Assembly (NCBI GenBank): GCA_015178975.1
Contig: WHVD01000093.1
Coordinates: 248,001 to 312,000 of the forward strand
Origin: Hysterangium stoloniferum
Taxonomy: Eukaryota > Basidiomycota > Agaricomycetes > Hysterangiales > Hysterangiaceae
Reading direction: 5' to 3'
DNA: 64,000 nt
In this document: positions 13,412-56,000 of the stretch, in pieces
Numbering within the stretch: position 1 is the first letter of the stretch
Layout: each line of letters starts with the position of its first letter
Translations under genes and position numbers: made by a program
The notes under the pieces: generated by a model
The model's input: only the letters and a program-made list of their open reading frames with translations
The model's database searches: none
Told to the model about the DNA's origin: nothing

Positions 13412-13439
13412 AACACATTGTGTAACTGTGACTCACCTC

Positions 13440-22612: not shown

Positions 22613-22700
22613 ATTTAATAATATTTTTTTTGACTTGCAAAACCTAAAACGAGTGTGAAAATGGAAGTGTCGGAAACTTGAACAGAAAAGAACAGAAAGA

Positions 22701-26237: not shown

Positions 26238-26377
26238 TAAATTTCCAAGAAAGTCAGAGACGAGTTTTACAAATAATGAATTGGGATTAGAGAGAGCGGA
26301 CGCGTTGAGACGGACAACCTCGGAAACACGGAGAGAGTCAACGCAACCCTCTGTCCGTGCAGATTCCGGAGGGTTGC

Positions 26378-27591: not shown

Positions 27592-27625
27592 GATGAGCGA
27601 GTCGCAGAGTTGAGATCTGATATAC

Positions 27626-30222: not shown

Positions 30223-30962
30223 TGTTAAGATCTAAGCTAAAAAGGAGGAGGGGGGCTCTAGTTGGGGTGGCTGATGATAGTAACTAAGTCAATCGGGGGG
30301 GGATGATAGAGATCGTACTAGTCAGGAGGTCCAACTCTATAAAATGTAGTGGAGCTTGGCTTCAACTTATGTATTGCACCCTTGTACAACTGTTAGGGTG
30401 CTCTGGTGTTTCAAACAGAGTGGATAGTATGATAGAAGAAGAGATTGACACTTCGGTCAATTGACTGGAGGGGTGAATTACTAAGAGTCATGAGGTAAAG
30501 GGTTGTGGCTTGCTGGAGACACCTTTGAGGGTATTAGAATAGGAATAATAGGACTGAGGACTAGAGGGGTAATCTAAGTCTATTTTCAAACTGAGGAAAT
30601 TGTAGCATACATCAGACAACTTTATACTAGACAGATGATTGGAGGGCCAATCAGAGAAGCAAGAGTGATGACAGGTCAGAAAGAAGTGGAGGAAGGAAAC
30701 AGGGATGTAAATGAGACTAAATACATAGCAAGTATACTAAAAGGTGTGAGGTGGCAAATGAGATATACATATATGGAATGGTGATGGGGGAGTGAGCAGA
30801 ACAGAGATGGGACAAAAGGCTAAGGTGCTGGGATACAATGAAAAAAAGTGTTGGGGGCACCACAGGTGGTGCTACTGTGAGCAGGGTGTTGATAGTAGGA
30901 TGACAGAGGGTTATGAGACTAAAAACAGCTTGCAGGGGTCCAAAATAATGGGGATCCTAACA
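30223..30962 (+). mobile_element. Solo LTR, family D, opposite orientation
   Basis: 740 bp, an inverted relative of the solo LTR at 28873, with TGTTAAGATC...GGATCCTAACA ends. The flanks TAGAC and TAAAC look like a 5-bp target duplication with one change, which suggests an older insertion just after the Copia RNase H end. Confidence 0.75.
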
Positions 30963-30967
30963 TAAAC

Positions 30968-31874
30968 CTCATACATTTATGGATACATAGCATAGGGCTA
31001 CCCTGCTTATGTAATGTAGTAAGCAAGAAGTTTTTCCAACAATATGATCTCTTGAACCATCAACAAGAGTGCTTCATTACTAACCTTCACACATTCAGGT
31101 TCACCTGGCATCATAAATACATACAAACCTGTTAAATTTGATGATGAAACACACCTTTTTATAGGGGGAGTCCACCAATTATTGCAACTTTTCATATGAA
31201 GATGCTAATTGTGGACCATGCATTTGGAGGTTAATGTGTGTCAGAACCACTATACACCTCCCAGAGCATCCAACCTATATTGTCAGGAGGTGCTACACTA
31301 ACTGACACAAGATATTGAGACACAAAGTACTTTTATTACAAGCTTATTAAACCCTTGTATATTGTGTATTGCAATAGAGTCAACTCATACTATTTTTAAT
31401 AAAACCAGCTTTATACAGCTCCACAGCAGATATTTGGACCATAACAGCTGGGAGTGGTCATTTTTTACTATATATGTAATTACATGTCCAATAATATATT
31501 ATGAGCTCATTGGTTTTGGCACAGTGATTGGCTCACAAATGAATTTGCAAGCTCAAATGGACTCCAATTGTGGGAAATATGCTACAGGTCAAATTTTGGA
31601 GGTGTAGCATAATAATTCACTAGATATATAGTATAAAAATATCTAGTCTCAGAGGATACATCACTATTTAAAGATGGAGTTTTGTAGAAATATAAATTTT
31701 ACCAGTAAACATCTGATATTATAATGATTACGGACAACCTCCATAAAGGGACCAAAATGTGGATTTTCTTAAATCCCCCACATGAACACTTTGTCAATCA
31801 TGTTGGCTAAGGCTAAGACACTGGGACCCAAGAGAGTTCACCACCTAATCACAGAGTTCCTATATGTACATATA
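30968..31874. other. Repeat-rich stretch with a short unassigned minus ORF
   Basis: At 31007-31195 the minus strand has a short coding-like ORF (VFMMPGEPECVKVSNEALLL) that I cannot assign. At 31450-31640 lies a partial copy of inverted-repeat element H (compare 17856-18008 and 18371-18480). Nothing else is recognised. Confidence 0.35.
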
Positions 31875-33476
31875 CAGTAGGCAACAAAACCCTTACAATG
31901 TTTTGTACTTTTTGAAAGACATGGCTATTCCTCCAGAAATAAATTCTGTAAAATGCCGAAAATATTATGTAATATACTTCAACATCATACCTTCCAGAAA
32001 TGCACAGCCACAAGGCACCACATCCTTATTTGGTAAGTTCACTTCACACACAAACTAATAGCTCATTGTAAGGGTTTTGTTGCACACATTTTTAAAGTTC
32101 AAAATGGGTCCTAGTCACATGACTTTGTTTATAAAGTTCAACAAAGTCATGTGACCACTCTTCCTCAATATATATAAGATGAAAGCAGCCAGTTGGAATC
32201 CCACAATCACCCTACTCACAATGAAAAAGCTCTCCTCCAGCCAAATCCAACATGTTCTTACTCTACTTGACTCTGGCATTTCTGGAGCTCAAATATGTTA
32301 CCAAACTCATCTCAGCAGTGCCACCATCAGTTGTATTCACTCTGAGCATCACCCTGACCTCCCCAAATGCTCTGGTGGCCATCCTACAAAACTTATCACA
32401 GCCAATATTGCCTATGCTAGAAGAATAATTTGCATGGGGAAGGTTGATAATGCCACACAGGCAACCAAGAAACTTATAGACATCATCAATACTCCTATTA
32501 CTTCACAAACAGTGTGTCACCACCTCAAAATCATAGGCATGAGGGCTGTGGTAAAGAGAAAAAGGCCACTTCTCAAACCTCATCATTGGAAATCTCGATT
32601 GGAGTTTGCAGAAAGGCATTTGGAATGGACCCTGGAGGACTGGAAGAGGGTCATATGGTCTGATGAGACTAAGATTAATAGGCTGAGATCAGATGGAGGG
32701 AAATATGTGTGGAAAAATGTGGGTGAGGGGTTAAATGATAGGTTAGTAGAGGGAACAGTCAAGTTTGGAGGAGGAAACCTGATGATGTTGGGATGCATGG
32801 GCTGGGATGGGGTTGGGTTTGCAACCAAAATTGATGGGAGGATGGATGGTGAGCTTTATGTGGGGATACTGGATGATGAACTCTAGCAAACCCTCAAATA
32901 TTACAACAAAACAGTGGCTGACATTGTGTTTCAACATGACAATGACCCCAAACACACCAGCAAAAAGGCCCAGAAATGGTTCACTGACCATGATGTTACA
33001 GTCCTCAAGTGGCTTGCACAATCTCCTGACATGAATCCTATTGAACATCTGTGGAATCATGTCAAAAAGAAGCTGGGGGAGTATGCACAGCCTGCAAATA
33101 GTGTTCATGAACTGTGGGAGAGGGTGAAGAAGGTGTGGGAAGAGATTCCAAAGGAGGAGTGTCAGAAGCTTATTGAGAGTATGCCTAGAAGACTTGTAGC
33201 AGTGATTAGAGCAAAGGGGGGCCATACTAAATACTAATTTCTTGTAATAATAGTCTCAAAATAGTGTGCAACAAAACCCTTACAATGAGCTATTGGTTTG
33301 TGTGTGATGTGGACTTACCAAATAAGGACATGATGCCTTGTGGCTGTGCATTTCTGGAAGGTATGATGTTGAAGTATATTACATAATATTTTCAGCAATT
33401 TACAGAATTTATTTCTGGAGAAATAGCCATGTCTTTCAAAAAGTGCAAAACATTGAAAGGGTTTTGTTGCCTACTG
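31875..33476 (+). mobile_element. Tc1/mariner transposon, nearly intact
   Basis: 1602 bp flanked by TA dinucleotides (31873-31874 and 33477-33478). It begins CAGTAGGCAACAAAACCC and ends with its reverse complement. The terminal inverted repeats are unusually long, about 200 bp (31875-32085 and 33268-33476), with only scattered differences. One transposase gene lies between them. The good match of the two ends points to recent activity. Confidence 0.92.
32179..33237 (+). pseudogene. Tc1-family DDE transposase with one internal stop
   Basis: A single frame of about 352 codons starts with MKAASWNPTITLLTMKK; a later ATG at 32221 is also possible. The N-terminal ~120 residues form the bipartite helix-turn-helix region (SSQIQHVLTLLDSGISG, ATKKLIDIINTPITSQTVC). 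The catalytic core has VIWSDETKINR, IVFQHDNDPKHTSKKA and QSPDMNPIEHLWNHVKKKL, the three acidic positions of the DD34E Tc1 group. The only defect I see is a TAG at 32884-32886, which a C-to-T change from CAG would explain. No introns are apparent. The enzyme would cut at the inverted repeats and insert at TA. Confidence 0.88.
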
Positions 33477-33536
33477 TATAGCTGAAAGTTAATGAGGTGA
33501 TCAGCAGTGGGATGGTGTAATGGTTTTAAGTCAATG

Positions 33537-34383
33537 TGTTAGGAACTCTTAAGGGTGTGTACACAGAGGGTTTCCGGAGAAACCCACAGGAAATCCGGTA
33601 GGACTTGGCTTCAGCTTATTGGCTGCACCCTCGCGAGATCATGTTGTCCAATTTCAAACAGGCAGACGGGAAACCCAGGGAGTCCAGGTGGAGTTCGTGG
33701 GTCGAGGGGTCATAGGTCAGAGGTTGTGGGTCGAGAGGTCGGGGAGTCGAGATAAATAAGTCAGAGGTTAAGAGATAGATGTGTCAGAGCCCGTGGGCTC
33801 TGACTAGTGAGAATGGTGTAATTCAGAGAGGAGTTTAGAGTGGAAAATGTACTAGATTACTGGGGAGAATCTAAGCTGATTTTCTGACTGTATTGTATGT
33901 ACAACATCTGCCAGACTATATAGACTGTGGAATGAATAACATACCAAATCCAGTAATAATGAAATGAAACTAGCAAAACATAAAACAGGATAAGTAAACA
34001 CCAAATTTGGTGTTAGGAATGGGACAGAACGGAGTGGAGTCCAAATCATGACAAATCATAAACCATAATGGGAAACGGAGCGGGAGCAGAGTCCGAATTG
34101 TGACAGGTCATTTGACTAAAATGGGAATGGGGCTCAGTTAGAGGGATGACGGGTTTTCTGAGCGGGGTCCAGTGACTGATGCGTGGGACAGAGTCAGACA
34201 TAGACAGGGATGGAGTCCAGTGAGTATTCCGGTGACTGATACATAATGTAACGAAGTCGGATGTGGACAAGTCTGATGTACAGAGTCCGGCAGGAATTCC
34301 GGTAAACTGACAATTGGTGCATTATAGGGCGTGGGTGCGTATAAGTTAGTACCTGGAGTCCAGCAGGAATTCCAGTTGTAACA
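33537..34383 (-). mobile_element. LTR family B copy
   Basis: 847 bp, TGTTAGGAAC...TTGTAACA, related over its whole length to the solo LTRs at 47441 and 53803. No target duplication is visible, so it may be one end of a larger deleted element. Shared LTR motif at 33601-33630. Confidence 0.75.
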
Positions 34384-34408
34384 GGAACCATCATTTCAGA
34401 ACCCAACT

Positions 34409-35729
34409 GTTACACTCAGGGCTTATGGGCAGGTATTTAGGGAAACTCACAGATGTTCTGGGGACAGGTAGGACTTGGCTTCAACTTATGTGCTGCACCC
34501 TTGCATGATTGTCAGGTCCAATTTCAGACAGAAAGGTACAGAATACCTGGGGGTCCAGGAATATGCAAAGTGATGAGTTGGGAAGCCTGTGGGCTCCAGG
34601 AATACACTGGTGCTGTAAGGGGACCTTCACTACAAGATCTCCCAATACCCTATCCCCAACCTCATTTTCCCCTATGCCAGATGCTCCACCCTTTTTCAGT
34701 TTTATTCCCTCATGGATTAAGTATGTATTATGCCCTTACACAGACATTCAACCATCATCCCCATATTTCCCTCTTCTATTCCAGTCACCAGCTCTCTGTC
34801 CTAATAGTTCAGCAATATGTAAACCAGTGGACAGATAAGCTAAGCACCAGGAAAGCCTTAGCTCCAAAAATTTTTCAGTAGAGGCTTATTTTATCTAAAC
34901 TTTGCCAATCACTCATTGGATCCTTAACTGAGTTAAAGTTGGTTAAGGAGCTAACAAACTTTTGGATCCTTAAAGATCCATAACCAAGTTGAAATTGGTT
35001 AAGGAACCAACAACATGTGATTGCAGAGTTTAGAAGTTAATGAACTTTTGGATCCTCAAATGATTCCTTACCAATTTTAACTCTTATAACAATTCAATGG
35101 ATGATCGTTGGAGTTTATATAAAATAAGGCTCTACTAAGGATCCTAAATTATTTTGGAGAGGGGGGTTATCCTGGTGTCTGTAAGTCTTTATCTCTCTCT
35201 CACAGTATGACCCACCCAGGTACTGTATCCTGGACCCCTTAGATGCTTGGAGATCTTGTCCCAATCTGCCCTTGAACCTGGTTGACATCTGGTTTATTAT
35301 GTCCCCTGTGCCTGTTCCTGTTTCATCCTGGCCTTGTCCCCAGTATGGACACCCCTTCCTTGTTTCATGTTTGCCCATTTTGTCTTTTCTCCAACCAGTG
35401 TAGTACAATAATCTTTAATTCTATATAGTCTAGCCTATGCATGTACTTACAATCCAATTAGAAAATCAACTTAGTATACCTCTAGTACCCTACCAGTTAG
35501 TTTTTGGTTTGGGCCTGTATATTCTTGGAACCTGCAGGTTGTCCCACTTGACCTTTCCTGCCATTCTCAAGCCTTTGGACTTCCCATCTTGATCATCTCT
35601 TATATTCTGGGACCCCACAGGTTATCTGCTTACCCCTGTCTGAAATAGGGTACAACAATCATGTGAGGATGCAGCACATAAGTCAAAGCCAAGTCCTATC
35701 TGCCATCCAGAACCCTGCCCATAAGCCCT
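34409..35729. mobile_element. Two LTR family C pieces in inverted orientation
   Basis: TGTTACACTCAGGGCTTATG at 34409 opens an LTR-like piece that runs to about 34860. Its inverted relative ends at 35729 (CATAAGCCCTGAGCTTAACA) and extends back to about 35180. Between them (34870-35130) are AT-rich near-repeats around GGATCCTTAA. No coding sequence is recognised. Both pieces are truncated. Confidence 0.5.
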
Positions 35730-35809
35730 GAGCTTAACAGTCATACCCTGCTATTTTTAGTGTAGTAAGTAGATAGGGCCACACCTCACAGAAAGGAATC
35801 CTTAGATGG

Positions 35810-36460
35810 TGTTAAGTGTGGGGGTCATGGGGGGGTCTCCAGGGGAAACCTGTGGAAGTTCCAGGGAAGGACTTGGCTTCAGCTTATGTACTGTGCCCTC
35901 ACAAGATTGCATTGTCCAACTTCAGACAGGAGCAGATGGGAAACCCATGGATTCTGAGAATATGCTGAGGCAGATACTAAGTTGAGGCTAAGTTGATTTT
36001 CTAATCAGATTGTAAGTACAGATAGTAGCTAGACTATATAGACTAGTAGATTATTGTACTACATATCCAGAGAGACAAAAGACATAACAGGCATACAATA
36101 AGACAATAAACCAGATGTCAAATTGATCAGGAAACAAGGGGCAGACTGAACCAGATGTCAAATGGGCAAAGACAGATTATATTGGGGACAAAATCACAGC
36201 CTAAACTCTTGTTCAAAGTCTGCCAGGAGCTAAATAAAGGGATTCCAATGGAGCAGTGGTGCTTTGTTACACTGTGGGATGGCATGTGGGGGGTGTGGGG
36301 CATCAGAAATGGGGGATATGGTGTGTAGGGGTCCCCTGAAGGGTGGGGTAATGTGTCATCATGAGGGAAAATGGCACATGTTGGGGCACACCAGGGGGGT
36401 GGGGTGGTGCAGCATGTGGTGGGGTTGTGGAAGTGTTCAGAGTCCCAAGGTGTGACAGTA
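35810..36460 (-). mobile_element. LTR-like fragment, family B/C
   Basis: Begins TGTTAAGTGTGGGG and carries the shared LTR motif at 35869-35900. The middle has the conserved block that precedes the 'gacaaaagacataacagg'-type tail of other copies. The far end around 36250-36460 is G-rich and poorly conserved. No target duplication found. Confidence 0.45.
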
Positions 36461-36520
36461 TCCTCAATAGGATATTATTGGTCTCAGATCTGGAGTCTTG
36501 GAGCTCTGTGAGTGTGCACC

Positions 36521-36900
36521 TGTTAGGATCCCCATTGTTTTGGACCCCTGCAACCTGTTTCCCTTTGTCATCTCACTGTCAGAACCCTGCCCATGGTACA
36601 CCATCTGCAGTGCTCCCAACACTTGTTTCATTATAGTTTTGATCCTTTTAGCCTTCCATTCTGTCTCTGTCCCATTCACTCCCCCATCACTGTCTCCCTG
36701 TATACATCTCACTTGCCACCTCAGACTGTTTTAGTATTGTTTAGTATTTTACATTTAGTCTTCCCACCTTGTCATCGGACTCTGCTGGAACCTGTGCACA
36801 TCAAAGCCTGTCTATTTCCAACCCCATTCTATGCACCAGTCACCAGGCTCTGCCCAGATAACCTGACAGCTCTCTAACTGAGCCCCATTCCCATTATGGC
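36521..36900 (-). mobile_element. LTR family D fragment, truncated
   Basis: TGTTAGGATCCCCATTGTTT matches the reverse complement of the end of the solo LTR at 30223-30962. It stops abruptly next to the sulfotransferase-like exons, so one side of the LTR is missing. Confidence 0.6.
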
Positions 36901-36932
36901 TTGTACTTATTGACGTCTTGGATCATGTGTAG

Positions 36933-37460
36933 GACCAGCGACTCCGGAGCAATTCGACATGATTTTACAAGGTTATCACGCCGTTCTGGACCAACCTGCC
37001 GCACTTTTTCCTGGCGAACTTTATGAGGCGTACCCTGATGCGAAGTTTATATTGGTAAGTGTCGTTGCTGTGATGGTCAAAGAGTCACATAAACGATAAG
37101 ATATATTTCTCCTAAAGACGACACGAGATCCAGACAAGTGGGTCACCAGCACACAAAAAACAATATTTCCGGCAATTGAATTAATGCAGCAGATGGAGCC
37201 TGAGGATCGGACGCCTCTAGAAGAATTTTTCGTTATATGGCATCGCGACCATGTCTGTATGTGATCTGTATCATTAGCGATTTGTATTCTCATATTGGAA
37301 TACAGTAAAGAAATTTTACAGTCAAGATGCTTTCACTAATTCGAAGCGGATCATTTTGGAGCATAATGAGAAGGTTAAAAGAATTGTCCCTGAAGAAAAG
37401 CTTCTTGTGTATGAAGTTGGGGAAGGTTGGACCAGGCTGTGTCAGTTTTTGGAAGTGTAA
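36933..37460 (+). pseudogene. Sulfotransferase-like (P-loop) gene, 5' end lost
   Basis: Three exons (36933-37054, 37118-37256, 37306-37460) with 49-63 nt introns read in phase: GELYEAYPDAKFIL, then TTRDPDKWVTSTQKTIFP, then VPEEKLLVYEVGEGWTRLC and a stop after FLEV. This is the C-terminal part of the fungal Sulfotransfer_4 / P-loop family, whose members normally have a P-loop exon upstream and continue past the GW..LC motif. The N-terminal half is missing and an LTR fragment begins where it should be. The gene also ends earlier than expected. It therefore looks like a host gene cut by transposon insertion or deletion. Enzymatic function in these fungal proteins is mostly unproven. Confidence 0.7.
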
Positions 37461-39741
37461 GAGGTTCTCAATAAAATAGAATTAATGGCTGACGTGAAAT
37501 ACCTAATGATCTGTCATGTTTTGGACTCTGCCTCCATTCCGTTCCACCTCTAACACTTAATTTGGTGTTTACTTATCTTGTTTCATGATTACTTGTTTGG
37601 ATCTCATTATTACCAGATTTGGTATTGCATACATACAGTCTATCTAAACTACCTAATGTTGTACATACAATCCAGTCAGAAAATCAACTAAGTTTTCAGA
37701 CTAAGTCCTCCCCCAGTTACTTAGCACATACCCACTCCATCCCCATCTCACAACACTATCGACCTCATCAGAGCCTGTGGGCTTTCTGACTGGTCCCTGT
37801 TCCATCCTCATCTCTCATATCACCATGCTCACTATTGACCTCGTCGGAGCCCATGGGCTTCCCAACTGGTCTTTCAACCTATCAACCCTTTATCCATGGG
37901 TTTCTCCAGAAACCCTCTGCTAAGCTCTGCATGCACCTTAACAGTATTTTCTGACCTGGACTCACAGATTGTGTCAATATGCCACCAAGAAGAAAAGCAC
38001 CCATACAGGAATTGTTACCTGGACCCTCGACTCTTCATTCCCCACTTACTTTGTATACCAGCCAGACACTCACAAACCAGCCAGATGCCACAGATGAACC
38101 CCATATTGAAGAAGTCCCAGAAAACCTGGATGAATCTGAGCACAAGGACAAGTCCATGGCCCCCAACAAGGGCAAAGGTGTCAAAAATTCCCCATCTAAC
38201 GATTGACTGCCACTTTCAGATCCCACTTCCAAGTTGTTAGCAATCACTTTAGAAAGATTGATGAATCACATGCTTGGAGAAGGCAATAAAAAGGATCTGG
38301 AACCTCCATAGTTAAAAGTCAACACTCCAGAACCCTTTATGGGTTCCAACCCCAACAAACTTTCCACCTTCCTCATGCAATGTCACTTCAATTTCCACAA
38401 TTGATCTGCCACATTCTCCATGGACTCCCAAAAAGTCAATTATGCACTCTCACACCTCTCAGGATCCGCATTGAAATGGTTCAAACTGGCTTTTAGTGGA
38501 CTTTCCGAGGAAGAGCTGACCTGGCTTGAAGATTGGAATGCTTTTGTTGAGGAGCTAGAAACAAACTTTGGCCCATATTACCCGACCAGAGAAGCCGAGA
38601 ATAGCCTCACCAATCTTCATATGAAGGACAGCCAGCACATCACAGACTACATTGTCCAATTCAACAATCTTGCAGCTCATTGTCAGTGGGGTGATCCCAC
38701 TCTCCACCACCAGTTCTATACTGGTCTGCCATCCTGCCTGAAGGATGAAGTCTCAAAAGGTGAAGATGGCAAACCAAAAACACTGTCCCGTATGTGCCTC
38801 AAGGCTCAAAATGCAGATGTACACTATTGGGAACATCACATGGAAGTTGCCCATGAGACCTCTGTGGACAAGGCCAACAAGTTCATGGCCAACAAGCCCA
38901 ACAACAACACCCCATCCACCAGCAACCAAAACTCCACGCACTCTGATTGGAAGAATGACAAGAAGTCTTCCAACAACAACAACAAAGGTCAACAGTCCAG
39001 CAAGCAAACTGGAAAATCTGACCTTACAGGCAAGCTTGGACCTGATGGCAAACTTAACCCACAGGAAAGGCAGTGGCATATGGACAACAGCCTTTGTCTC
39101 TTGTGCAGAAAACCCAGTCATCGAGTTCTGGAATATCTGTTGGTGAAAGTAAACTCTGCAAAAGGTTGTACAGCCAAGATTTCCTCCACAGAATCCCCAT
39201 TGAAAGACAAACCAGCTTCCAACCCAAAAAAAGAGTAAGCAACCCCATGGATTCCACATGGGTTGGGGGTTGCATTATCTCTCCACACATTCATGAGTTT
39301 ACTTGTCTTAATGCATCTGCTCTTTTGAACTCTGACTCATTTTTTATTAAACTTATGTCTAATATGATCCTGAAATCCATTTTTTCAGCACTCATAGATT
39401 CTGGCTTGACTCATTGTTTTTTAGACACAAAGTTCATAAAAGAAATTCTGTGGTCAACTTATCCAATAAACCCAGTTAGATTCTGACTTTTCAATGGCAC
39501 AAGTAATTTGGTTATCACCCAAGCTTGCAACCTATCTATCCAGTTCCTGTGTGGAACATCTCAGTTGGTCACTTTCTATGTGACCCAGTTAGACTCAAGT
39601 TGCTGGGTTGTCCTAGGACATAACTGGCTTATCTGATACAATCCATTGATTGACTGGGTATCAAACAGTATAACTTTTTGGACACCCACAGCACCCAAGA
39701 CAACTGTATCTGACACGGCCTCCACGACACCCATGGCCTTC

Positions 39742-40430
39742 CACTGGAGGCACCCCAAGATTTTTGGAGTTGCAAAACCTTCAGAAAATCTTGCTATTTG
39801 GCCAAATTTGCTAAGCATTCTTTGAACTGGAAAAACTGTTTGAAAATCTTGAGTTTTAGTAGGTTTTTCTGAGGACAAAAATTGTATCTGAAAACCCTAA
39901 CAATGTTGATCAGGAAATTCTAAGGAAACGTTGTTGGAAATAGCCTATTTTCTGTGGATTTTCTAAATAGGAAAATTCTTAAAAAACCCTGGGTTTTGTT
40001 AGGGTTTTTCCACCCAACAGAATTCTATGAAAACTGTAATAATTTGCCTAGAGAAATCAATTGAAAACCACATATTTCTACTCAATTTTTCTGCTCAGGG
40101 AATTGGGTGAAAACTGTAATTTTTTGCCAGGAAAATCTTGTGCCAAGACAAAGTTTTGTTAATGTTTTGTCAAGGGGAAAACCATAATGAAATTGACAAT
40201 TTAATTATATGGGAAATCATTGAATAATTATAGATTTCAATAAGATTTTCCTTGGCCACAAACACTATGGAAATTCAAAAAATGTGTTGGTGAAATCTTG
40301 AAGAAATTAACATTTTCACATGAGTTTCTTAAAGGTTTTTCAAGATGAGAAACCTTGAACTGATTTTTCCTGATTGAGCATGATTCACAATTGTTTGGAA
40401 TGGTACAGTGGGATTCACAAATATTTAAGA
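39742..40430 (+). repeat. Foldback element, left unique arm (689 bp)
   Basis: Non-tandem part of the left arm. Compared with the reverse complement of 44675-45363 I find one difference (G at 39930) and no length change. AT-rich and non-coding. Confidence 0.9.
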
Positions 40431-43400
40431 GGATTGTTTTAGATTCAGGTAGATTCTTTTAGATTCAGATAGATTCTTTTAGATTCAGATAGATTCTTTG
40501 AGATTCTTTTAGATTCAGGTAGATTCTTGTAGATTCAGATAGATTCAGATAGATTCAGATAGATTCTTTTAGATTCACATAGATTATTTTAGATTCAGGT
40601 AGATTCTTGTAGATTCAGATAGATTCTTTTAGATTCAGATAGATTCCTTTAGATTCACATAGATTCAGATAGATTATTTTAGATTCAGGTAGATTCTTGT
40701 AGATTCAGATAGATTCTTTTAGATTCAGATAGATTCTCTTAGATTCATATAGATTCACATAGATTCTTTTAGATTCACATAGATTATTTTAGATTCAGGT
40801 AGATTCTTGTAGATTCAGATAGATTCTTTTAGATTCAGATAGATTCTTTTAGATTCTCTTAGATTCAGATAGATTCTTTTAGATTCACATAGATTCAGAT
40901 AGATTCTTTTAGATTCACATAGATTCTTTTAGATTCAGGTAGATTCTTTTAGATTCTTTTAGATTCTTTTAGATTCAGGTAGATTCTTTTAGATTCAGAT
41001 AGATTCAGATAGATTCAGGTAGATTCTTGTAGATTCAGATAGATTCAGATAGATTCAGATAGATTCTTGTAGATTCAGATATATTATTTTAGATTCAGGT
41101 AGATTCTTGTAGATTCAGATAGATTCTTTTAGATTCAGATAGATTCCTTTAGATTCACATAGATTCAGATAGATTGTTTTAGATTCACATAGATTATTTT
41201 AGATTCAGGTAGATTCTTGTAGATTCAGATAGATTCTTTTAGATTCACATAGATTCAGATAGATTCTTTTCGATTCAGATAGATTCTTTTAGATTCACAT
41301 AGATTCTTTTAGATTCACATAGATTCTTTTAGATTCACATAGATTCTTTTAGATTCACATAGATTCAGATAGATTCTTTTAGATTCTTTTAGATTCACAT
41401 AGATTCAGATAGATTCACATAGATTCAAATAGATTCTTTTAGATTCACATAGATTATTTTAGATTCAGGTAGATTCTTGTAGATTCAGATAGATTCAGAT
41501 AGATTCAGATAGATTCAGATAGATTCAGATAGATTCTTTTAGATTCACATAGATTCACATAGATTATTTTAGATTCAGGTAGATTCTTGTAGATTCAGAT
41601 AGATTCTTTTAGATTCAGATAGATTCTTTTAGATTCTCTTAGATTCAGATAGATTCTTTTAGATTCACATAGATTCAGATAGATTCTTTTAGATTCACAT
41701 AGATTCTTTTAGATTCAGGTAGATTCAGGTAGATTCTTTTAGATTCACATAGATTCAGATAGATTCTTTTAGATTCACATAGATTCAGATAGATTCTTTT
41801 CGATTCAGATAGATTCTTTTAGATTCACATAGATTCTTTTAGATTCACATAGATTCAGATAGATTCTTTTAGATTCTTTTAGATTCACATAGATTCAGAT
41901 AGATTCACATAGATTCAAATAGATTCTTTTAGATTCACATAGATTATTTTAGATTCAGGTAGATTCTTGTAGATTCAGATAGATTCACATAGATTCAGAT
42001 AGATTCAGATAGATTCAGATAGATTCAGATAGATTCTTTTAGATTCACATAGATTCACATAGATTCTTTTAGATTCACATAGATTATTTTAGATTCAGGT
42101 AGATTCTTGTAGATTCAGATAGATTCTTTTAGATTTAGATAGATTCTTTTAGATTCAGATAGATTCTTTTAGATTCTCTTAGATTCAGATAGATTCTTTT
42201 AGATTCACATAGATTCTTTTAGATTCAGGTAGATTCAGGTAGATTCTTTTAGATTCACATAGATTCAGATAGATTCTTTTAGATTCTTTTAGATTCAGAT
42301 AGATTCTTTTAGATTCACATAGATTCAGATAGATTCTTTTAGATTCACATAGATTCAGATAGATTCACATAGATTCAAATAGATTCTTTTAGATTCACAT
42401 AGATTATTTTAGATTCAGGTAGATTCTTGTAGATTCAGATAGATTCAGATAGATTCTAGAATCTATCTGAATCTATCTGAATCTATCTGAATCTACAAGA
42501 ATCTATCTGAATCTACAAGAATCTATCTGAATCTACAAGAATCTATCTGAATCTACAAGAATCTATCTGAATCTACAAGAATCTATCTGAATCTACAAGA
42601 ATCTATCTGAATCTACAAGAATCTATCTGAATCTACAAGAATCTATCTGAATCTACAAGAATCTATCTGAATCTACAAGAATCTATCTGAATCTACAAGA
42701 ATCTACCTGAATCTAAAAGAATCTACCTGAATCTAAAAGAATCTACCTGAATCTAAAAGAATCTATGTGAATCTAAAAGAATCTATGTGAATCTAAAAGA
42801 ATCTATCTGAATCTAAAAGAATCTATCTGAATCTATGTGAATCTAAAAGAATCTATCTGAATATATGTGAATCTAAAAGAATCTACCTGAATCTACCTGA
42901 ATCTAAAAGAATCTATGTGAATCTAAAAGAATCTATCTGAATCTAAGAGAATCTAAAAGAATCTATCTGAATCTATGTGAATCTAAAAGAATCTATCTGA
43001 ATCTAAGAGAATCTAAAAGAATCTATCTGAATCTAAAAGAATCTATCTGAATCTAAAAGAATCTATCTGAATCTAAAAGAATCTATCTGAATCTAAAAGA
43101 ATCTATCTGAATCTAAAAGAATCTATCTGAATCTAAAAGAATCTATCTGAATCTAAAAGAATCTATCTGAATCTAAAAGAATCTATCTGAATCTACAAGA
43201 ATCTAAAAGAATCTAAAAGAATCTAAAAGAATCTACCTGAATCTAAAAGAATCTACCTGAATCTAAAAGAATCTACCTGAATCTAAAAGAATCTATGTGA
43301 ATCTATCTGAATCTACAAGAATCTACCTGAATCTAAAATAATCTATGTGAATCTAAAAGAATCTAAAAGAATCTATGTGAATCTAAAAGAATCTATCTGA

Positions 43401-44674
43401 ATCTAAAAGAATCTAAAAGAATCTATCTGAATCTATGTGAATTTAAAAGAATCTATCTGAATCTACAAGAAACTACCTGAATCTAAAATAATCTATGTGA
43501 ATCTAAAAGAATCTATCTGAATCTATGTGAATCTAAAGGAATCTATCTGAATCTAAAAGAATCTAAAAGAATCTAAAAGAATCTATCTGAATCTATGTGA
43601 ATCTAAAAGAATCTAACTGAATCTATGTGAATCTAAAAGAATCTACCTGAATCTAAAAGAATCTACCTGAATCTAAAAGTATCTATGTGAATCTAAAAGA
43701 ATCTATCTGAATCTAAGAGAATCTAAAAGAATCTATCTGAATCTACAAGAATCTACCTGAATCTAAAATAATCTATGTGAATCTAAAAGAATCTATCTGA
43801 ATCTATGTGAATCTAAGAGAATCTATCTGAATCTAAAAGAATCTACCTGAATCTACAAGAATCTACCTGAATCTAAAATAATCTATCTGAATCTATGTGA
43901 ATCTAAAAGAATCTATCTGAATCTATGTGAATCTAAAAGAATCTATCTGAATCTAAAAGAATATATCTGAATCTAAAAGAATCTATCTGAATCTAAAAGA
44001 ATCTAAAAGAATCTATCTGAATCTAAAAGAATCTATCTGAATCTAAAAGAATCTATCTGAATCTAAAAGAATCTATCTGAATCTATGTGAATCTAAAAGA
44101 ATCTAACAGAATCTATCTGAATCTAAAAGAATCTACCTGAATCTAAAAGAATCTACCTGAATCTAAAAGAATCTATCTGAATCTAAAAGAATCTATCTGA
44201 ATCTATGTGAATCTAAAAGAATGTATCTGAATCTAAGAGAATCTAAAAGAATCTATCTGAATCTAAGAGAATCTAAAAGAATCTATCTGAATCTACAAGA
44301 ATCTACCTGAATCTAAAATAATCTATCTGAATCTAAGAGAATCTATCTGAATCTAAAAGAATCTATCTGAATCTACAAGAATCTACCTGAATCTAAAATA
44401 ATCTACCTGAATCTAAAATAATCTATCTGAATCTATGTGAATCTAAAAGCATCTATCTGAATCTATGTGAATCTAAAAGAATCTATCTGAATCTATGTGA
44501 ATCTAAAAGAATCTATCTGAATCTATGTGAATCTAAAAGAATCTATCTGAATCTAACAGAATCTATCTGAATCTATCTGAATCTATCTGAATCTATCTGA
44601 ATCTCAAAGAATCTATCTGGATCTAAAAGAATCTATCTGAATCTAAAAGAATCTACCTGAATCTAAAACAATCC
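40431..44674. repeat. Decamer satellite, two inverted arrays of AGATTCNNNT
   Basis: 40431-42457 consists of direct decamers AGATTC plus a three-base word plus T. 42458-44674 consists of the same decamers inverted. The variable words are mainly TTT, AGA, ACA, AGG, TTG and TCT. Unit phase never shifts across about 203 units on the left and 222 on the right: changes are substitutions only. The left array contains larger duplicated blocks, for example a rare CGATTC unit recurring 530 bp apart (41271 and 41801). The right array begins with a long alternation of two unit types (about 42490-42700) not mirrored on the left. Confidence 0.95.
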
Positions 44675-45363
44675 TCTTAAATATTTGTGAATCCCACTGT
44701 ACCATTCCAAACAATTGTGAATCATGCTCAATCAGGAAAAATCAGTTCAAGGTTTCTCATCTTGAAAAACCTTTAAGAAACTCATGTGAAAATGTTAATT
44801 TCTTCAAGATTTCACCAACACATTTTTTGAATTTCCATAGTGTTTGTGGCCAAGGAAAATCTTATTGAAATCTATAATTATTCAATGATTTCCCATATAA
44901 TTAAATTGTCAATTTCATTATGGTTTTCCCCTTGACAAAACATTAACAAAACTTTGTCTTGGCACAAGATTTTCCTGGCAAAAAATTACAGTTTTCACCC
45001 AATTCCCTGAGCAGAAAAATTGAGTAGAAATATGTGGTTTTCAATTGATTTCTCTAGGCAAATTATTACAGTTTTCATAGAATTCTGTTGGGTGGAAAAA
45101 CCCTAACAAAACCCAGGGTTTTTTAAGAATTTTCCTATTTAGAAAATCCACAGAAAATAGGCTATTTCCAACAATGTTTCCTTAGAATTTCCTGATCAAC
45201 ATTGTTAGGGTTTTCAGATACAATTTTTGTCCTCAGAAAAACCTACTAAAACTCAAGATTTTCAAACAGTTTTTCCAGTTCAAAGAATGCTTAGCAAATT
45301 TGGCCAAATAGCAAGATTTTCTGAAGGTTTTGCAACTCCAAAAATCTTGGGGTGCCTCCAGTG
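44675..45363 (-). repeat. Foldback element, right unique arm (689 bp)
   Basis: Mirror of 39742-40430 with identical length. The outermost seven decamers adjoining each arm also match almost perfectly before the two arrays diverge in unit order. Confidence 0.9.
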
Positions 45364-46505
45364 TTCCCAGCACCTGTGGCCTCGGTGGCCCCTGTGATCC
45401 CTACAGCACCCATGGCTTCCCCAGAACCCACAGCACCTCTGTCTATTTCTCTCATTAATGCTGCAGCATTCATTAGGGCTACAAAAATGGATGGATCCCA
45501 GGTGTTCACTATCAATTTGAAAATTGATGAAGCAACTGGACATTTTTTCAACTCTGGCATCTGAGCAATCCGCTGATCTAGAAGGCATCCCCAAGAAATA
45601 TCATGATTTCGTGGATGTTTTTAGTAAGTGTAAAGCTGACTGGCTTCCACCCCACAGAGAGTATGACTTAAAAATCGACCTCGAAGAAGGTGCCCAGCTA
45701 CCCCTTGGACATACATATGTACTGTATCTACCCGCTGTCCTCCATGGAACTTTCTGCAATCCGGGATTTCCTGGACAAACATTTGTCCATAGGTTTTATC
45801 AGACCCTTGAAGTCTCCTTTTGGAGCACCTGTTCTGTTTGTTAAGAAAAAGGATGGATCTCTTTGACTATGTGTTGATTTCAGAGGACTCAATGCTGTTA
45901 CATGGAAGGATAAGTATCCACTCCCACTTATATCTGACCTGCTCGATGCTCCACAGAATGCCTGGATTTATACCAAGATAGACCTTAAACATGCCTACCA
46001 CTTGGTCTGGATCTCCATGGGAGACAAGTGGAAAACCACTTTTAGGACCCAATATAGGGCTTTTGAGTGGTTGGTGATGCCCTTCAGGCTCACCAATGCT
46101 CCATCTGTTTTTCAATGTTTTATTAATGATATTTCTCTGACATGCTTGATGTATGCATCATTGTTTATCTGGATGACATTCTTATCTACTCCAAGGATCC
46201 CATGGTACATCACAAACAGGTTCACAAAGTTCTCCAGAGACTCAGACAACATGGTTTATTCACAAATGGTAAAAAATGTACTTTGACATGGACTCTGTGG
46301 AATATCTAGGTTTCATAATGGGACCCAACAGACTCCATATGGATGAAGCCAAAGTACAAGTCATCAAAGATTGGCCAGAACCCAGAAAAGTCAATGATAT
46401 ACAGTCTTTCCTTGGCTTTGCCAATTTTTACTGACGGTTTATCCACAGATATTCCAAAATCACAGTTCCCCTTAATTGTCTTACACACAAGGGCACTCTG
46501 TGGAA

Positions 46506-46930
46506 GGGCCACCTCAGTAGAGCCTGTGGTACTCACACTAGACCAACTAACAGAGGGATATCCAGAGTATATTAGGTAGCTACTAGATACAGATAAGGAC
46601 TACTCACCTAACAGAGGGATATCCAGAGTATATTAGGTAGCTACTAGATACAGATAAGGACTACTCACCTAACAGAGGGATATCCAGAGAGAAAAGGATA
46701 AGGAGGCACCTCTGCTAGATGTTCCGAAACATGGGGGTGTCTAAAAATAGAATGACAGCTTACCCTCAATGGTCCATAACTATCTACTCTATCCTAGAAT
46801 ATTCCTAGAGGATGGAACAGTCCTCTGAAAAATGTGAGAAAAATATAGGAAACAATATAAAATAGCCTCTAAGGGTTAGTAAGTATAGACATAACAAAAA
46901 TCAAGAGATAAGACATAGAATGTCCCCTTA
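46506..46930. mobile_element. 425-bp insert with 12-bp target duplication and 61-bp tandem repeats
   Basis: Flanked by CACTCTGTGGAA on both sides (46494-46505 and 46931-46942). Inside, a 61-bp unit occurs twice plus a partial third copy (46547-46688). There is no ORF, no inverted terminal repeat and no clear Pol III box. The long duplication suggests target-primed or other non-LTR insertion, but the family is unknown. Confidence 0.6.
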
Positions 46931-47440
46931 CACTCTGTGGAATTTTGATGATAAGTGTCAAAAAGCTTTCAATCTTTTAAAAAATTCGTTTTCATCAGCT
47001 CCAATCCTTTCACATTGGAAATTGGACTTTCCACTCTGACAGAGAAGTCCACCCCATGGCTTTTCTGTCCCAGACTTTCATCAGACCAGAGCTCAATTAT
47101 GATGTTCATGACAAAGAACTCCTAGCAATTTTTACAGCCTTCAAATCTTGGAAACATTATTTGGAGGGTGTGGGAATTCCAATTGACATTGTAACAGATC
47201 ACAAAAACCTGGAATATTTTTCAACTATGAAACCTTTGACCCGCCAACAAGCCTATTGGTCTGAATACCTATCAGCCTTTAATATGATTATCTGTTTTCG
47301 ACCTGGCCACCTTGGTAGCAAACCCAATGCTTTAACTAGATGATGGGATGTCTATCCTAAAGAGGGGAGCAACGACTATGCCACAGTAAACCCACACAAC
47401 TTGAAACCCATTTTCATAAACCAGCAGCTTACCGCATCAG

Positions 47441-48280
47441 TGTTAGGATACACACACAGGCCGGGTTTCCAGAGAAACCCGCAGGATATCCGGTAGGACT
47501 TGGCTTCAGCTTATAGGCTGCACCCTTGCTAGATCGTGTTGTCCAATTTCAAACGGATGGATGGGGATCCCGGGGAGTCCGGGCGGGGTTCGTGGGTCAT
47601 AGGTCGTAAGTCGGAGGTCGTGGGTCGTAGGTCGGGGGTCATGGGTCGTAAGTCGAGTTAGTTGAGGGAGGTAGATGTGCCGGAGCCTGTGGGCTCTGAC
47701 TAGTGCAAGCGATGTGAATCGAGTAAGGTTTTAGAGCGGAAAATATTATTAGATTACTGGGGGGAATCTAAGCTAATTTTCTGACTGGATTGTATGTACA
47801 ACATCTGCCAGTTTATATAGACCATGGAGTGAATGACATACCAAATCCAGTAATGGCAAAACGAAACTAACAAAACATGAAACGGGAATAGTAAACACCA
47901 AATTGGTGTTAGGAACGGAACGGAATGGAGTGGAGTCCAAATCGTGACAAAGCATAACCCATAATGGGAAACGGAGCGGGAGCGGAGTCCTAAATCGTGA
48001 CAGGTCATTTGACTAAAATGGGAACGGGGCTCGATTAGAGCAGTGACGGGATGCTAAGCGGGGTCCGGTGACTGGTGCGTGGGACGAAGATGGACATAGA
48101 CAGAGACGGAGTCCAGGGGAAGTCCGGTGACTGATATGTGTCGTAATGAGGTCGAACGTAACGAGTCTTGACGTGACGGAGTCCGGGCGGGAAATCCTAT
48201 AAACAGACAATTGGTGCTTGTAGCGTGTGGGGGTGTACAGGTTAGTGCCCAGAGTCCGGCGGGATTGTCCGGTCGTAACA
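47441..48280 (-). mobile_element. Solo LTR, family B
   Basis: 840 bp, TGTTAGGATAC...GGTCGTAACA, with exact 5-bp duplication ATCAG (47436-47440 and 48281-48285). It contains a short GTCG-rich tandem region and the shared LTR motif (47496-47526). Inserted in the old Gypsy element. Confidence 0.92.
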
Positions 48281-48467
48281 ATCAGTCCACATGACTTTTC
48301 TCATCCATCCCATCATCTGTGGAATTATCATTATGGATATTGAGAAACTACATCAAGATATTCTATTAGCAATTCTGCTAGATCTGATAACCAAAGCACA
48401 TCTTGACAATCCTGTGGACCCCAGTCAACCCTGGTGGTCTCTTGATCAGCATGGTTTCATTAGACTT

Positions 48468-49190
48468 TGTTATGACTGTGTCGCAACCCTTCGCACGCCG
48501 ACGGTCCCCGATGGAATACCCTTGTTATACGCCTTTGACAATACAAGATCTCGGAAGCCGTCGGTCCCCCGATGCTGACGTATGCTCTCCGGTCAATCAA
48601 ACCCGACTACGCCTTTCTGTCTGGTTATGCTTTGATATGTCCCTTTCATCATGTTGATCCGTCTCATCTTATGTTCCACATATGTCTATCTATATTTGTA
48701 GTCCTTGAACTATTTCCTTTTATCGTAATTTCCATTCTCGGTTATCATCGGCCTCCGAACTAATCATAAACTTCCTGTTCCTAGTCAAGCTTATTGTTAA
48801 TGCCGTTTTCCGCCCTCCTCCCCATTAGTACTTTCTAGACGCCTGTTACTTGTATATGAACTCGCTGTAATTGTAGTTACTAGGCAATCAGAATATCGAC
48901 TCAGAATACCCTCATACGTCTGTAGCAGTCTCATACTAGAAGAATCCCCCTTCCGCCTTCGCATGCGCTCGCCCACTCTCGGCCCCGACCCCTTGGCCCG
49001 ACACTTGACTTGTCCTTCAGTTCCAATCGGTATCTCGCCGAAAGGTTCTTCTTAGGATTTAGTCTTCGCCTGTCCGAAATTTAAGGACAACCTACGGATA
49101 TTTGCGAGGGTGCAGCACATAAGCTGAAGCCAAGTCCTCCCGATCGGTCCCCGTCGGCCACCGACATTAGTCAGTTTCTAGTTCTTAACA
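48468..49190 (+). mobile_element. Solo LTR, family F
   Basis: 723 bp, TGTTATGACTG...GTTCTTAACA, flanked by exact GACTT duplications (48463-48467 and 49191-49195). Related to the copy at 50435. Shared LTR motif, in inverted sense on the plus strand, at 49107-49138. Confidence 0.92.
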
Positions 49191-50190
49191 GACTTGACAA
49201 TCACATATATGTACTGGACTCCGATGGCCTCCACCTCAGGATTCTCTAGTACAAACATGACCATCCACTCTTGGGACATTTTGGGTTTTACAAGACTCTA
49301 TCAATGATAAGAAGAGAATATACTTGGCCTGGACTCCGAGATTTCATTAAGCACTATTGTAAATCTTGCATTACTTGTCCACACTCTAAATCACAGCATC
49401 ACAAGCCTTACAGCCTTCTGAAACAACTCCCAGTAATGGAACACCCATGGAATTCCATCTCTATGGATTTCATTGAACATCTACTGGACACTGAAGGCTT
49501 TTCTGCCATTCTAGTCATTGTTGACAGATTCTCAAAACAAGGTATTTTCATCCCTACACATGATACCATCACATCCATGCAGCTAGCAGAACTTTTTATG
49601 ATCAATGTATTTTCCAAGCATGGAGTTCCATCCCATGTACTGTAGCTTCTGATTGAGGATCAGAGTTTGTATCTCACTTCTTAAGATCCCTTGGGAAATC
49701 CTTGGATATGAAATTACACTTCACATCCAGATAACACCCAGAAGGCAATGGACAAACTGAGTGTGTCAACCAGACATTGGAACAATATCTCCATGTATAT
49801 TGCAACTATCAACAGGACAATTGGAAATCCCTGTTACCACTTGCAGAATTATGCACCCTCAGCCTACTGCCATTTCTCCATTCTTCACAAATAAAGGGTA
49901 CAATCCAAATATTATGGTATACCCAGAACAGAATCTTGCCTCTGCCCATGCTCAAGAGTTCATCACGGACCTCCATGAGCTCCACAAGGAACTCCAGACT
50001 GCAATAAAATCCACTTAAGAGCAATATCAGCATTCAGTGGACAAAAGCCAGATTCCACCACCTAACTTCAAAATTGGTGATCGCATTTTTGTCAAAGCTC
50101 AATTCTTCTGAAGTACCTGTCCATCAAAGAAACTTGCTGAAAAATATTTAGGTCTGTTTGAAATAATAGCACAAGTAAACCCCTGTATGG

Positions 50191-53052: not shown

Positions 53053-56000
53053 CTATTTATGACTGAAATAGTCTGTGAGATAAGTTGGAACCAGGGAACA
53101 AGACTTCTCTATACAGATTTGCTGCCTAAAGGAAGCCAGGATTCCCTTGAGCTTGTGTTCCACATGATCATTGATGCCGTTGATGTACCTGTTGATGAGC
53201 GATGCAGCCTGAAGCACCTCACGTTGTGTAGGACAAGCTTCAACTGATGTGTCATCATCAATGTCATCATCCCCACCATTAATTAGCCCCTCTTCCTGTC
53301 CTCTTTGTGCATCCACCATGGCCTGGAAATTTTCTTCATCTGTTGTCTCATTGGTAAATGATACCTCATCTGCCAGGTTGAGCAGGACCTCAATATACAT
53401 TCTGTTGCTTGTCTGAAGTGCCCCAGTTAATACCAGCTTATCAAGGGCACACTTGACCTGGTTCTCAGCATTCGTGATTGGATCTTCATGACCAAGAGTG
53501 GCATCAAGATTCAGGAGTGATGGGATCTGGATTGTGGCTGGATGGGTGTCATAAAATCTGCAGTAGGAAGAATCCCAGCTTTGCACCAACAATGCCTGAT
53601 CGTGGTCACATCCACCTCTTGCTAAGCAAGATCAGCAAGTCACATTGCTTGGAGTTGGTTGATATCATAGATTTGCAATGGTGTGTGTGACATTTGCATC
53701 ATAACAGTTGATGGTGGGCTGGATATATCTTGCACAATAATGAGCCTTGAAGCATCATATGATGCCCTGATCCATTAGCTGGATATGTGCAGTCAGGTTG
53801 GGTGTTAGGATACACACTCAGGCCAGGTTTCCGGAGAAACCCGCAGGATATCCGGTAGGACTTGGCTTCAGCTTATGGGCTGCGCCCTCGCTAGATCGTG
53901 TTGTCCAATTTCAAATGGATGGATGGGGATCCCGGGGAGTCCGGGAGGGGTTCGTGGGTCGTAGGTCGTAAGTCGGGGGTCGTGGGTCGTAAGTCGGGGG
54001 TCGTGGGTTGTAGGTCGTAAGTCGGGGGTCGTGGGTCATAAGTCGGAGGTCATGGGTCGTGAGTCGAGTTGGTTGAGAGAGATAGATGCGCCGGAGCCCG
54101 TGGGCTCCGACTAGTGCGAGTGATGTGAATTGAGTAAGGTTTAGAGCGGAAAATATTATTAGATTACTGGGGGGAATCTAAGCTAATTTTCTGACTGGAT
54201 TGTATGTACAACATCTGCCAGTTTATATAGACCGTGGAATGCATGACATACCAAATCCAGTAATAACGAAATGAAACTAACAAAACATGAAACGGGAATA
54301 GTAAACACCAAATTGGTGTTAGGAACAGAACAGAACGGAGCAGAGTCCGAATTGTGACAAAGCATAACCCATAACAGGAAACAGAGCGGGAGCGGAGTCC
54401 TAAATCATGACAGGTCATTTGACTAAAACGGGAATGGGGCTCGATTAGAGCGGTGACGGGATTCTAAGCGGGGACCGGTGACTGATGCGTGGGACGAAGA
54501 CAGACATAGACAGAGACAGAGTCCAGGGGAAGTCCGGTGACTGATATGTGTCGTAATGAGGTCGAACGTAACGAGTCTTGATGTAATGGAGTCCGGGCGG
54601 GAAATCCTATAAACAGACGATTGGTGCTTGTAGCGCATAGGGGCGTACGGGTTAGTGCCCAGAGTCCGGCAGGATTGTCCGGTCGTAACATTGGGCTCGA
54701 AATTCTCAACACAGATGTTCTGAAGACCATCTGGAATGATGTGACTGGAGAAATTATCTTGCAGAAGAAGAACCTTCTGATTTTTTTCTCTGAACTCCTG
54801 ATCCCATTGCTGAAGCTACTCTTGATACAAGGCCAACATCATCCAAGCTTTCACATTGTTTCAATAATAAAAGCCAAGTTGTGCACCAGTCTTGTTTTGG
54901 AATGCTCATGGCTTCTTTGCTTTTCCAATAATAAAAGCTGGCAGTTTTTAGGACCCATCTGCATTTGATGTGAAGGTATATGTCAGCCTAACTTTTTTCC
55001 CTTTGACTCCTGAAGACTTCTTGTCTGCCAGGCCTTGATCAGGGGGCATCCTGCTTTGGAACTGGGTGATCAATGTTTTGAAAACAACAGATATGGGATG
55101 CACCCATAGAACAATCCAGTCTCATCTATGTTAAAGATGTCCCACAGCTCATAACCATACTGCTTGATAAGTTCCTGGATACACTGTCACTCCCTGTTTA
55201 CTGTCTCCAGGTCTGCAGATCTGGCCTCTCTGTGGAACTCCCTCAAGCCATTTCAAGACTTGAACCAATCCAGCCAACCACCACTCAAATTGAGACACTT
55301 ATCCATTGGGACGCCCACCAGGTCAGCAAATTTTGTCCACTTCTGGTGCAAGACTTTGCCAGTTACAAGAATACCATCTGCCATCGTCTTCAACACCCAA
55401 GGCTCCATCATTTCCATAACCTCCAGATACTGTGTTTGATGAGCCCATTTTGTTGTGTTGACACCGACACCACATCCCCATTCTTCATGCCACTTTGCTT
55501 CATCCTTTACCCAGGCAGAGACAAGTGGCTGCTTGATTTTCAGGTTAGGATAAATTGGGTCAAATGTTTTGCTGTTTTTGACTGATTCCTGCCATTCATG
55601 TGATACCAATCCAAGATTTCAATTTGCTGTGAAAGTGTCACATTTTCCTTTTTGGTGAACACTGGTACAGAAACATGAGAGGTCTTCTCAACCTGTTTTT
55701 TGGGCTTGTATTCTGGGCCTTATGGATAGTTATTACCACCATGAATGAAATCATCAGTATCCACATATGTTTCTGCTTGTTTCCTATCACTTTGCTGAGG
55801 TCCCCAGTCATCTCCCATAATTTTCGGACAACACCCTTCTGCTCATTGTCAAGTCTCCCCAAACCTCTCTCATAGTCTGAAGCTTCTTCCAGAGTCTCCA
55901 AAGCCCACTGCTTGTCCACCAAATTGGCTTTGTGATCCAGCCATCTCTCATCTTGCCACAAAATCGACTTCTTCTCAGCTAGCTGTGCCTGGAGCCTCTC

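Follow-up and report, generated by a model that had tools for sequence, protein, structure and literature searches.

The DNA examined here is a stretch of 64,000 nucleotides from the basidiomycete Hysterangium stoloniferum (Agaricomycetes; Hysterangiales; Hysterangiaceae; GenBank assembly GCA_015178975.1, contig WHVD01000093.1, positions 248,001 to 312,000 of the forward strand), in the following referred to as the window. At window positions 39742-45363, direct reading and measurement reveal an inverted repeat of 5622 bp without any spacer, which begins with CACTGGAGGCACCCC at its 5' end and closes with the reverse complement of this sequence at its 3' end. Its left half (2716 bp) is composed of an outer non-array part on the plus strand at 39742-40439 (698 bp, starting with CACTGGAGGCACCCCAAG and containing one CpG) and a decamer array of the same orientation at 40440-42457, comprising 201 full TAGATTCNNN units and an 8-bp partial unit at the centre. 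The right half (2906 bp) carries the same parts on the minus strand, that is, a reversed decamer array at 42458-44665 (220 full units plus an 8-bp partial unit) and an outer non-array part at 44666-45363 (698 bp, ending in CTTGGGGTGCCTCCAGTG and free of CpG). Where the two arrays reverse, a perfect palindrome of 56 bp in total (42430-42485) extends over 28 bp on either side of the junction 42457/42458, with TAGATTCT directly abutting AGAATCTA and a spacer length of zero. Alignment of the halves from end to end yields 2528 matches, 168 mismatches and 230 gap positions, and a position-by-position comparison shows the outer 743 bp of the arms to be identical except for one base: at position 189, the left arm has a CpG (39929-39930) where the right arm has CpA (45175), and a second difference first appears at position 744. 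The element has no evident coding capacity, its longest stop-to-stop frame amounting to 73 amino acids, and no RNA genes were detected within it, the only tRNA of the window being located at 15850-15929. With up to three mismatches allowed, a scan of the window for the 18-bp end returns just the two ends themselves, compared with 0.04 expected occurrences, and no further copies of the element were found in the 64 kb. With very long inverted repeats that contain short tandem repeats and with practically no unique middle, the element has the structure of a foldback element.

This element is an insertion into an old retrotransposon. It is bordered on both sides by TTC, the left copy of the target site duplication being located at 39739-39741 and the right one at 45364-45366, as read directly from the flanks: CATGGCCTTC precedes CACTGG at the left boundary and TTCCCAGCAC follows CCAGTG at the right one. 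Comparison of these two flanks yields a duplication of 3 bp only and not the 8-10 bp of Mutator-type foldbacks. A scan of the window for terminal pairs (CACNR..YNGTG, 16-bp ends, up to three mismatches, spacing of 200-20,000 bp) returned CACTG...CAGTG with its adjoining 3-bp duplication as the sole pair of this kind. An earlier, sequence-only reading of this DNA is borne out in its basic description, namely a mirror of 39742-42457 and 42458-45363 around a perfect central palindrome, outer arms of 689 bp identical but for one base (the near-identity in fact reaching further), defined ends CACTG...CAGTG with a 3-bp duplication, and the absence of any gene. The host site was traced by tblastn using the intact Gypsy element of the same window (22704-27310) as query. 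Upstream, the gag and protease region of a decayed Ty3/Gypsy element is found on the plus strand at 38357-39738 (gag piece 38357-39235, also recognized as Pfam Retrotrans_gag, and pol piece 39226-39687), while the linker, reverse transcriptase (RT), RNase H and integrase pieces follow downstream at 45367-50180, again on the plus strand and in several frames with gaps. These downstream tblastn pieces (45343-50180) are ordered as in intact pol, and the order of RT, RNase H and integrase on the plus strand is supported by Pfam domains. The insertion point thereby falls into the protease-RT linker of the decayed element and, if the insert and one TTC are removed, ITFWTPTAPKTTVSDTASTTPMAF joins PAPVASVAPVIPTAPMASPEPTAPLSISLINAAAFIRATKMDGSQ in one frame, as in intact Gypsy. 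The decayed Gypsy region downstream additionally contains a 61-bp tandem repeat in 2.3 perfect copies (46547-46689).

The interior of the element is built from decamers. The arrays start at element position 699 (window 40440), their units being read from the outside toward the centre, and the inner 4.2 kb resolve into 201 and 220 full decamers, or 4210 bp plus two 8-bp partial units, with lengths as assembled. The claim that this middle part is made only of decamers is right as to its composition, although some units are variants, the core TAGATTC being exact in 390 of the 421 units. Preceding this core, the variable triplet NNN is mostly TTT, AGA, ACA, AGG or TTG. A pattern of two adjoining decamers, with one mismatch allowed, matches 419 times in the window, where 0.03 matches would be expected. 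Units with an A-initial triplet alternate with the others at 150 of the 200 steps on the left and at 182 of the 219 on the right, compared with means of 98 and 110 and maxima of 120 and 132 in 2000 shuffles each. Since this alternation is above chance, the working repeat is nearer to 20 bp, and a 20-bp period is also among those reported by Tandem Repeats Finder for both arrays. Furthermore, the two arrays have features of unit order in common. Both carry the core change GAGATTC at unit 7, and 46 of 196 six-unit words of the left array recur in the right one in the same order, as opposed to two in reversed order; the unit-order alignment score of 151.2 exceeds all 500 first-order Markov simulations (mean 123, maximum 149.6). 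Judged by this unit order, there is moderate support for one ancestral array that would have been copied into both arms and subsequently reshaped. A long alternating TTG/AGA run adjoining the centre is present in the right arm only and looks like a recent expansion. The contrast in rate between arrays and outer arms, based on 15 once-seen decamers and the single arm difference, gives P = 0.053 (P = 0.09 with the unit-7 change removed, P = 0.07 with it counted once). It follows that the near-identity of the outer arms can be explained without gene conversion, while homogenisation by this process would also fit.

A further characteristic of the element is its depletion in CpG. The single CpG in the left outer arm and its complete absence from the right one contrast with about 17.5 each as predicted from base composition, and in the whole element 3 CpG are found compared with 113 predicted, the latter figure being inflated by the repetition of one unit. 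The long terminal repeats (LTRs) of the intact Gypsy and the decayed Gypsy in the same window show how repeats lose CpG. Fourteen differences separate the two LTR copies of the recent, intact element; in 10 of them CpG stands opposite TpG or CpA, and a further two make up a CA/TG pair, as would arise from one lost CpG. In the decayed Gypsy around the insert, the CpGs of the intact relative are kept at 0 of 22 and 5 of 61 sites, as compared with 10 of 19 and 17 of 34 for the GpC control. To judge from these alignments, repeats of this genome decay at CpG. Since one CpG change is all that separates the arms, the element was almost devoid of CpG by the time its present arms arose or were inserted, and most of the surrounding decay probably predates it. 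Its CpG loss could reflect plain ancestral decay or an advantage. Across the window, the observed/expected ratio of CpG per kb forms a mosaic, with values of 0-0.52 in 13000-21000 and 28000-47000 and of 0.70-1.34 in 21000-28000 and 57000-64000; such a sharp mosaic is expected from CpG-directed mutation of repeats.

With regard to class, CACTG ends in combination with a 3-bp duplication indicate a CACTA/EnSpm-type transposase. The ends are inverted and of the CACTA/CACTG and CAC..GTG type that characterizes these elements, and the duplication has the corresponding 3 bp, as seen in a single insertion whose site is not base-exact. The element is hence CACTA-like by its ends and duplication length, features of sequence that leave its family membership unproven. 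The idea of a foldback element put forward in the sequence-only reading can be kept on the strength of the discrete insertion, the defined ends, the 3-bp duplication and the lack of a gene, with the class now sharpened to CACTA/EnSpm-type. As no protein is encoded, the element would need mobilisation in trans. Taken together, the best explanation, which we regard as fairly probable, is a non-autonomous cut-and-paste foldback of the CACTA/EnSpm (CMC) type that is mobilised in trans and probably owes its symmetry to inverted duplication of one end. Fungal precedents for such termini exist: in fungal EnSpm families, the termini are CAC..GTG and the target site is duplicated over 3 bp (Kojima, PMC12730594), and CNIRT6 of Cryptococcus neoformans is described as a mobile CACTA element whose 24-bp ends start with CACTG and whose 3-bp duplications vary in sequence (PMC12810828). 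CACTG-initial ends and 3-bp duplications are thus common to CNIRT6 and the present element, a likeness in described features. In contrast, CNIRT6 is about 7.5 kb long, with 24-bp inverted ends and a transposase gene, while in the element from H. stoloniferum the inverted repeat spans the whole length, near-identical over 743 bp and continued by decamers, and no gene is present. The passages considered of PMC1636069, on CACTA in fungi, contain nothing on ends of this kind.

A mechanism consistent with these features can be proposed as follows. A transposase encoded elsewhere in the genome would recognise the CACTGGAGGCACC ends, pair them and excise the element, and reinsertion by a 3-bp staggered cut would leave TTC on both sides. 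Free of coding need, the interior could have turned into a minisatellite as slippage and unequal exchange multiplied two decamer classes in alternation. If the array of a half-element then broke, or if a template switch took place within it, head-to-head joining would have made both termini copies of one and the same transposon end, which would explain the zero-spacer symmetry; afterwards, the arms would have diverged in repeat number while their outer parts stayed nearly identical. Based on the arrangement of the sequence, the symmetry probably results from such an inverted duplication of one transposon end. There is precedent for a single-end duplication, since some copies of the transposon Galileo have lengthened their arms by internal inverted duplication, as described in PMC3573991.

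Several observations weigh against this reading or parts of it. The 64-kb window yielded neither a transposase nor a parent element, nor did it reveal a second copy. From 341 stop-to-stop frames of at least 60 amino acids (339 without the two large Gypsy frames), 116 of the longest 150 were submitted to Pfam, the 34 dropped ones mostly overlapping the intact Gypsy or other frames; the transposase scan thereby covered frames of at least 86 amino acids, and a separate Pfam scan of ten open reading frames (ORFs) took in the two Gypsy frames. None of the 116 ORFs belongs to a CMC-type transposase family. Among the 24 families detected, mobile-element signals are confined to Tc1/Tc5-type, DDE_3 and Gypsy, with weak additional matches to HTH_7, HTH_23 and Caulimovirus coat. 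Repeated subterminal transposase motifs are a feature of plant CACTA elements; no such motif stands clear of shuffles in the outer arm, whose best exact 8-mer is present in 5 copies (60 shuffles: mean 3.1, maximum 5) or, with one mismatch, in 15 copies (mean 10.6, maximum 15). CACTG is a short motif, a 3-bp match has a chance of 1 in 64 and joining in one frame a chance of 1 in 3. The joined frame contains stops (10 in 200 codons) and its linker comprises 44 residues compared with 32 in intact Gypsy. As the linker is variable, the paralogue places the insertion within the linker, and the empty site is not base-exact. Concerning the arrays, second-order Markov simulations of unit order reach a score of 164 (mean 129) versus the observed 151, and the longest common run of full decamers, 11, was equalled or exceeded in 29 of 200 simulations. 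The shared order deep in the arrays is hence only moderately supported. Finally, 13 of the 15 once-seen decamers differ in the 7-bp core (two of them representing the unit-7 change of both arrays), a count that is biased because changes between two common triplets are invisible as singletons. Conservation of the core is therefore not visible in this copy, and the pattern of singletons speaks against a present binding-site role of the decamers, as far as sequence can tell.

A different superfamily could also have mobilised the foldback, such as PIF/Harbinger, Plavaka or an undescribed fungal group with 3-bp duplications. PIF/Harbinger elements likewise generate 3-bp duplications, but Harbinger target sites are TTA/TWA-like, which TTC does not fit. 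In support of another superfamily, the assignment to CACTA derives from end sequence and duplication length alone, with no transposase among the window ORFs scanned, and PlavakaB duplications are given as 2 or 3 bp in the parts of PMC12730594 considered. The ends described in the same excerpts, namely CATCA..TGATG for PlavakaB and TGT..ACA for PlavakaA, which has a 2-bp duplication, are however unlike CACTG, and CACTG together with a 3-bp duplication is just the pattern of CNIRT6 (PMC12810828, in part). We therefore rate this alternative as unlikely, if worth keeping in mind.

The decamer arrays have consequences for folding as well. The two arrays pair with each other at shifts by multiples of 10, the paired fraction of bases being 0.79-0.83 at the five shifts tried (0, 10, 20, 50 and 100), as compared with 0.18 at a shift of 1 and 0.29 at a shift of 5, and slippage by whole units therefore leaves the foldback intact. 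For the central 600 nt, a fold of -211 kcal/mol is calculated using DNA parameters, versus a mean of -67 kcal/mol for 100 shuffles. By analogy with Galileo, where tandem repeats of the arms include additional transposase sites (PMC3688188), the decamers could constitute a ladder of such sites, about one per helical turn, or they may be passive. A more far-reaching proposal combines these points: head-to-head duplication of one end would have created an undescribed kind of fungal transposon in which both ends are identical, a middle is lacking and the 10-bp array supplies helically phased sites for the transposase or a partner protein. The array would keep the arms pairable in any 10-bp register and preserve the foldback despite changes in array length, and the nearly CpG-free state would help the element to evade the CpG-directed silencing and mutation by which the repeats around it are destroyed. 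As a whole, this proposal is speculative and we hold it to be rather doubtful. Alternatively, the element might act mainly as RNA, read-through transcription giving a long hairpin that would feed small-RNA silencing, a role compatible with transposition. Both the folding energy of the centre and the pairing of the arrays at multiples of 10 would suit such a hairpin, yet pairing follows automatically from a palindrome and is no independent evidence of function, and on this modelled basis a predominant RNA role appears improbable.

Two further explanations do without a mobile element. A one-off inverted duplication or satellite expansion, immobile thereafter, would agree with the single copy in the window and with the tandem array making up most of the element. 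Against it stand the symmetrical ends and the duplication, located inside another element that is split onto both sides, and one would expect flanking host DNA to be included in a plain inverted duplication; this origin is accordingly considered very improbable. An assembly artefact, that is, a palindromic (fold-back) read or a chimeric contig, is hardly credible even though sequencing reads are known to contain long perfect palindromes as artefacts and the arrays leave exact lengths unsure, because the flanks are not mutual inverted copies but represent consecutive segments of a single Gypsy pol that stay in one frame and the halves are unequal (2716 vs 2906 bp) and differ in unit order, with boundaries that moreover coincide with CACTG/CAGTG and the 3-bp duplication.

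In its construction, the proposed CACTA-type foldback resembles the foldback elements of flies and nematodes. The arms of Drosophila FB also contain shorter repeats of 10 and 20 bp. The comparisons that follow draw on portions of the papers cited. FB (Drosophila, PMC7642927), Tetris (PMC4079207) and Tm1 (root-knot nematodes, PMC3169594) combine long inverted repeats with tandem repeats of variable number, as is the case here. A repeat-free outer domain is known from FB (467-479 bp) and Tetris (up to 866 bp) and is likewise present in the H. stoloniferum element, and unequal repeat numbers between the arms of one element are shared with FB (PMC7642927) and Tm1 (PMC3169594); in Tetris, repeat number varies even between allelic copies (PMC4079207). 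Complete Tetris copies without a conserved gene (PMC4079207) parallel the gene-less state of the present element. Differences concern the duplications, which are 8-10 bp in FB, Tetris and Tm1 (9 bp in FB) compared with 3 bp here, the repeat units of 13-15, 27-31 or about 220 bp compared with 10 bp, and the middle domain, which FB and Tetris possess and the present element lacks. The known foldbacks named in PMC4079207 come from animals and plants, most of them being placed with Mutator. Galileo, a member of the P superfamily (PMC3688188, PMC3573991), demonstrates that the foldback form also occurs outside Mutator, and it is similar to the present element in having arms lengthened by tandem repeats and internal inverted duplication as well as gene-less two-arm copies. 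The longest-armed Galileo copies are non-autonomous, and in one copy 441 bp of internal region have been duplicated and inverted, thus lengthening the arms (PMC3573991). Galileo differs, however, in its P-type transposase, its ends, its arms of up to about 1.25 kb and its repeats of about 210 bp; extra transposase sites in its arms have moreover been demonstrated by binding assays (PMC3688188). It has been suggested that the foldback form arises across lineages via transposase loss and arm lengthening (cited in PMC4079207). The description of the element as an apparently unusual type of foldback therefore stands, since the compared foldbacks have 8-10 bp duplications or, in case of Galileo, are P-like. 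No fungal foldback element was found among the open-licence literature matches listed, a search conducted at the level of listings, one of which lacks the word foldback in the entries covered, and the end and decamer sequences, searched as literature text, matched two papers, both unrelated by title.

If true, a CACTA-type foldback in a fungus would represent a further independent origin of the foldback form. With its identical ends, no middle and probably recent age, this copy would provide a clean case for studying how palindromes of this type originate and persist. Palindromes of great length are fragile and favour rearrangement, and a natural one of 5.6 kb whose spacer has zero length offers good material for examining this question. 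Likewise, an element nearly free of CpG in a genome that mutates CpG offers a testable link between silencing and the persistence of gene-less elements.

Public DNA collections of viruses, plasmids and prokaryotes were searched for the decamer pattern and the 18-bp end. The former matched 6 viral and 24 prokaryotic stretches and the latter one viral contig. These 31 loci were rejected as relatives and attributed to chance, as they represent short decamer runs or, in one viral contig (L007), a coincidence over 18 bp; the outer arm matches 4 of the 31 at E values up to 1, over 16-23 bp. Related decamer runs, e.g., TAGATTCTGG, occur in a Helicobacter metagenome-assembled genome (CALUTE01 contigs; L011, L016, L018, L024, L026), several of them at the ends of the retrieved stretches and with arm matches of at most 21 bp, and they perhaps constitute a separate bacterial decamer repeat.

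Elsewhere in the window, the intact Gypsy mentioned above represents a recent Ty3/Gypsy element that occupies 20701-28210 on the minus strand. Its gag and pol frames are open, its observed/expected CpG ratio is about 1.2, and its LTR copies of 587 bp each are 97.6% identical. A dispersed repeat of about 0.7-0.9 kb is present in four copies that are 78-88% alike (12672-13402, 33568-34383, 47440-48280 and 53802-54690), three of which contain short GTCG-rich tandem repeats. A frame with HTH_Tnp_Tc3_2, the helix-turn-helix of Tc1/Tc3-type transposases, lies in a CpG-poor stretch at 32155-32883 and probably belongs to a decayed Tc1-like element. In keeping with a fungal host, the genes of the window include those for HMG-CoA synthase, a GNAT_LYC1-like protein and a DUF3669 protein, the HMG-CoA synthase gene being interrupted by apparent short introns.

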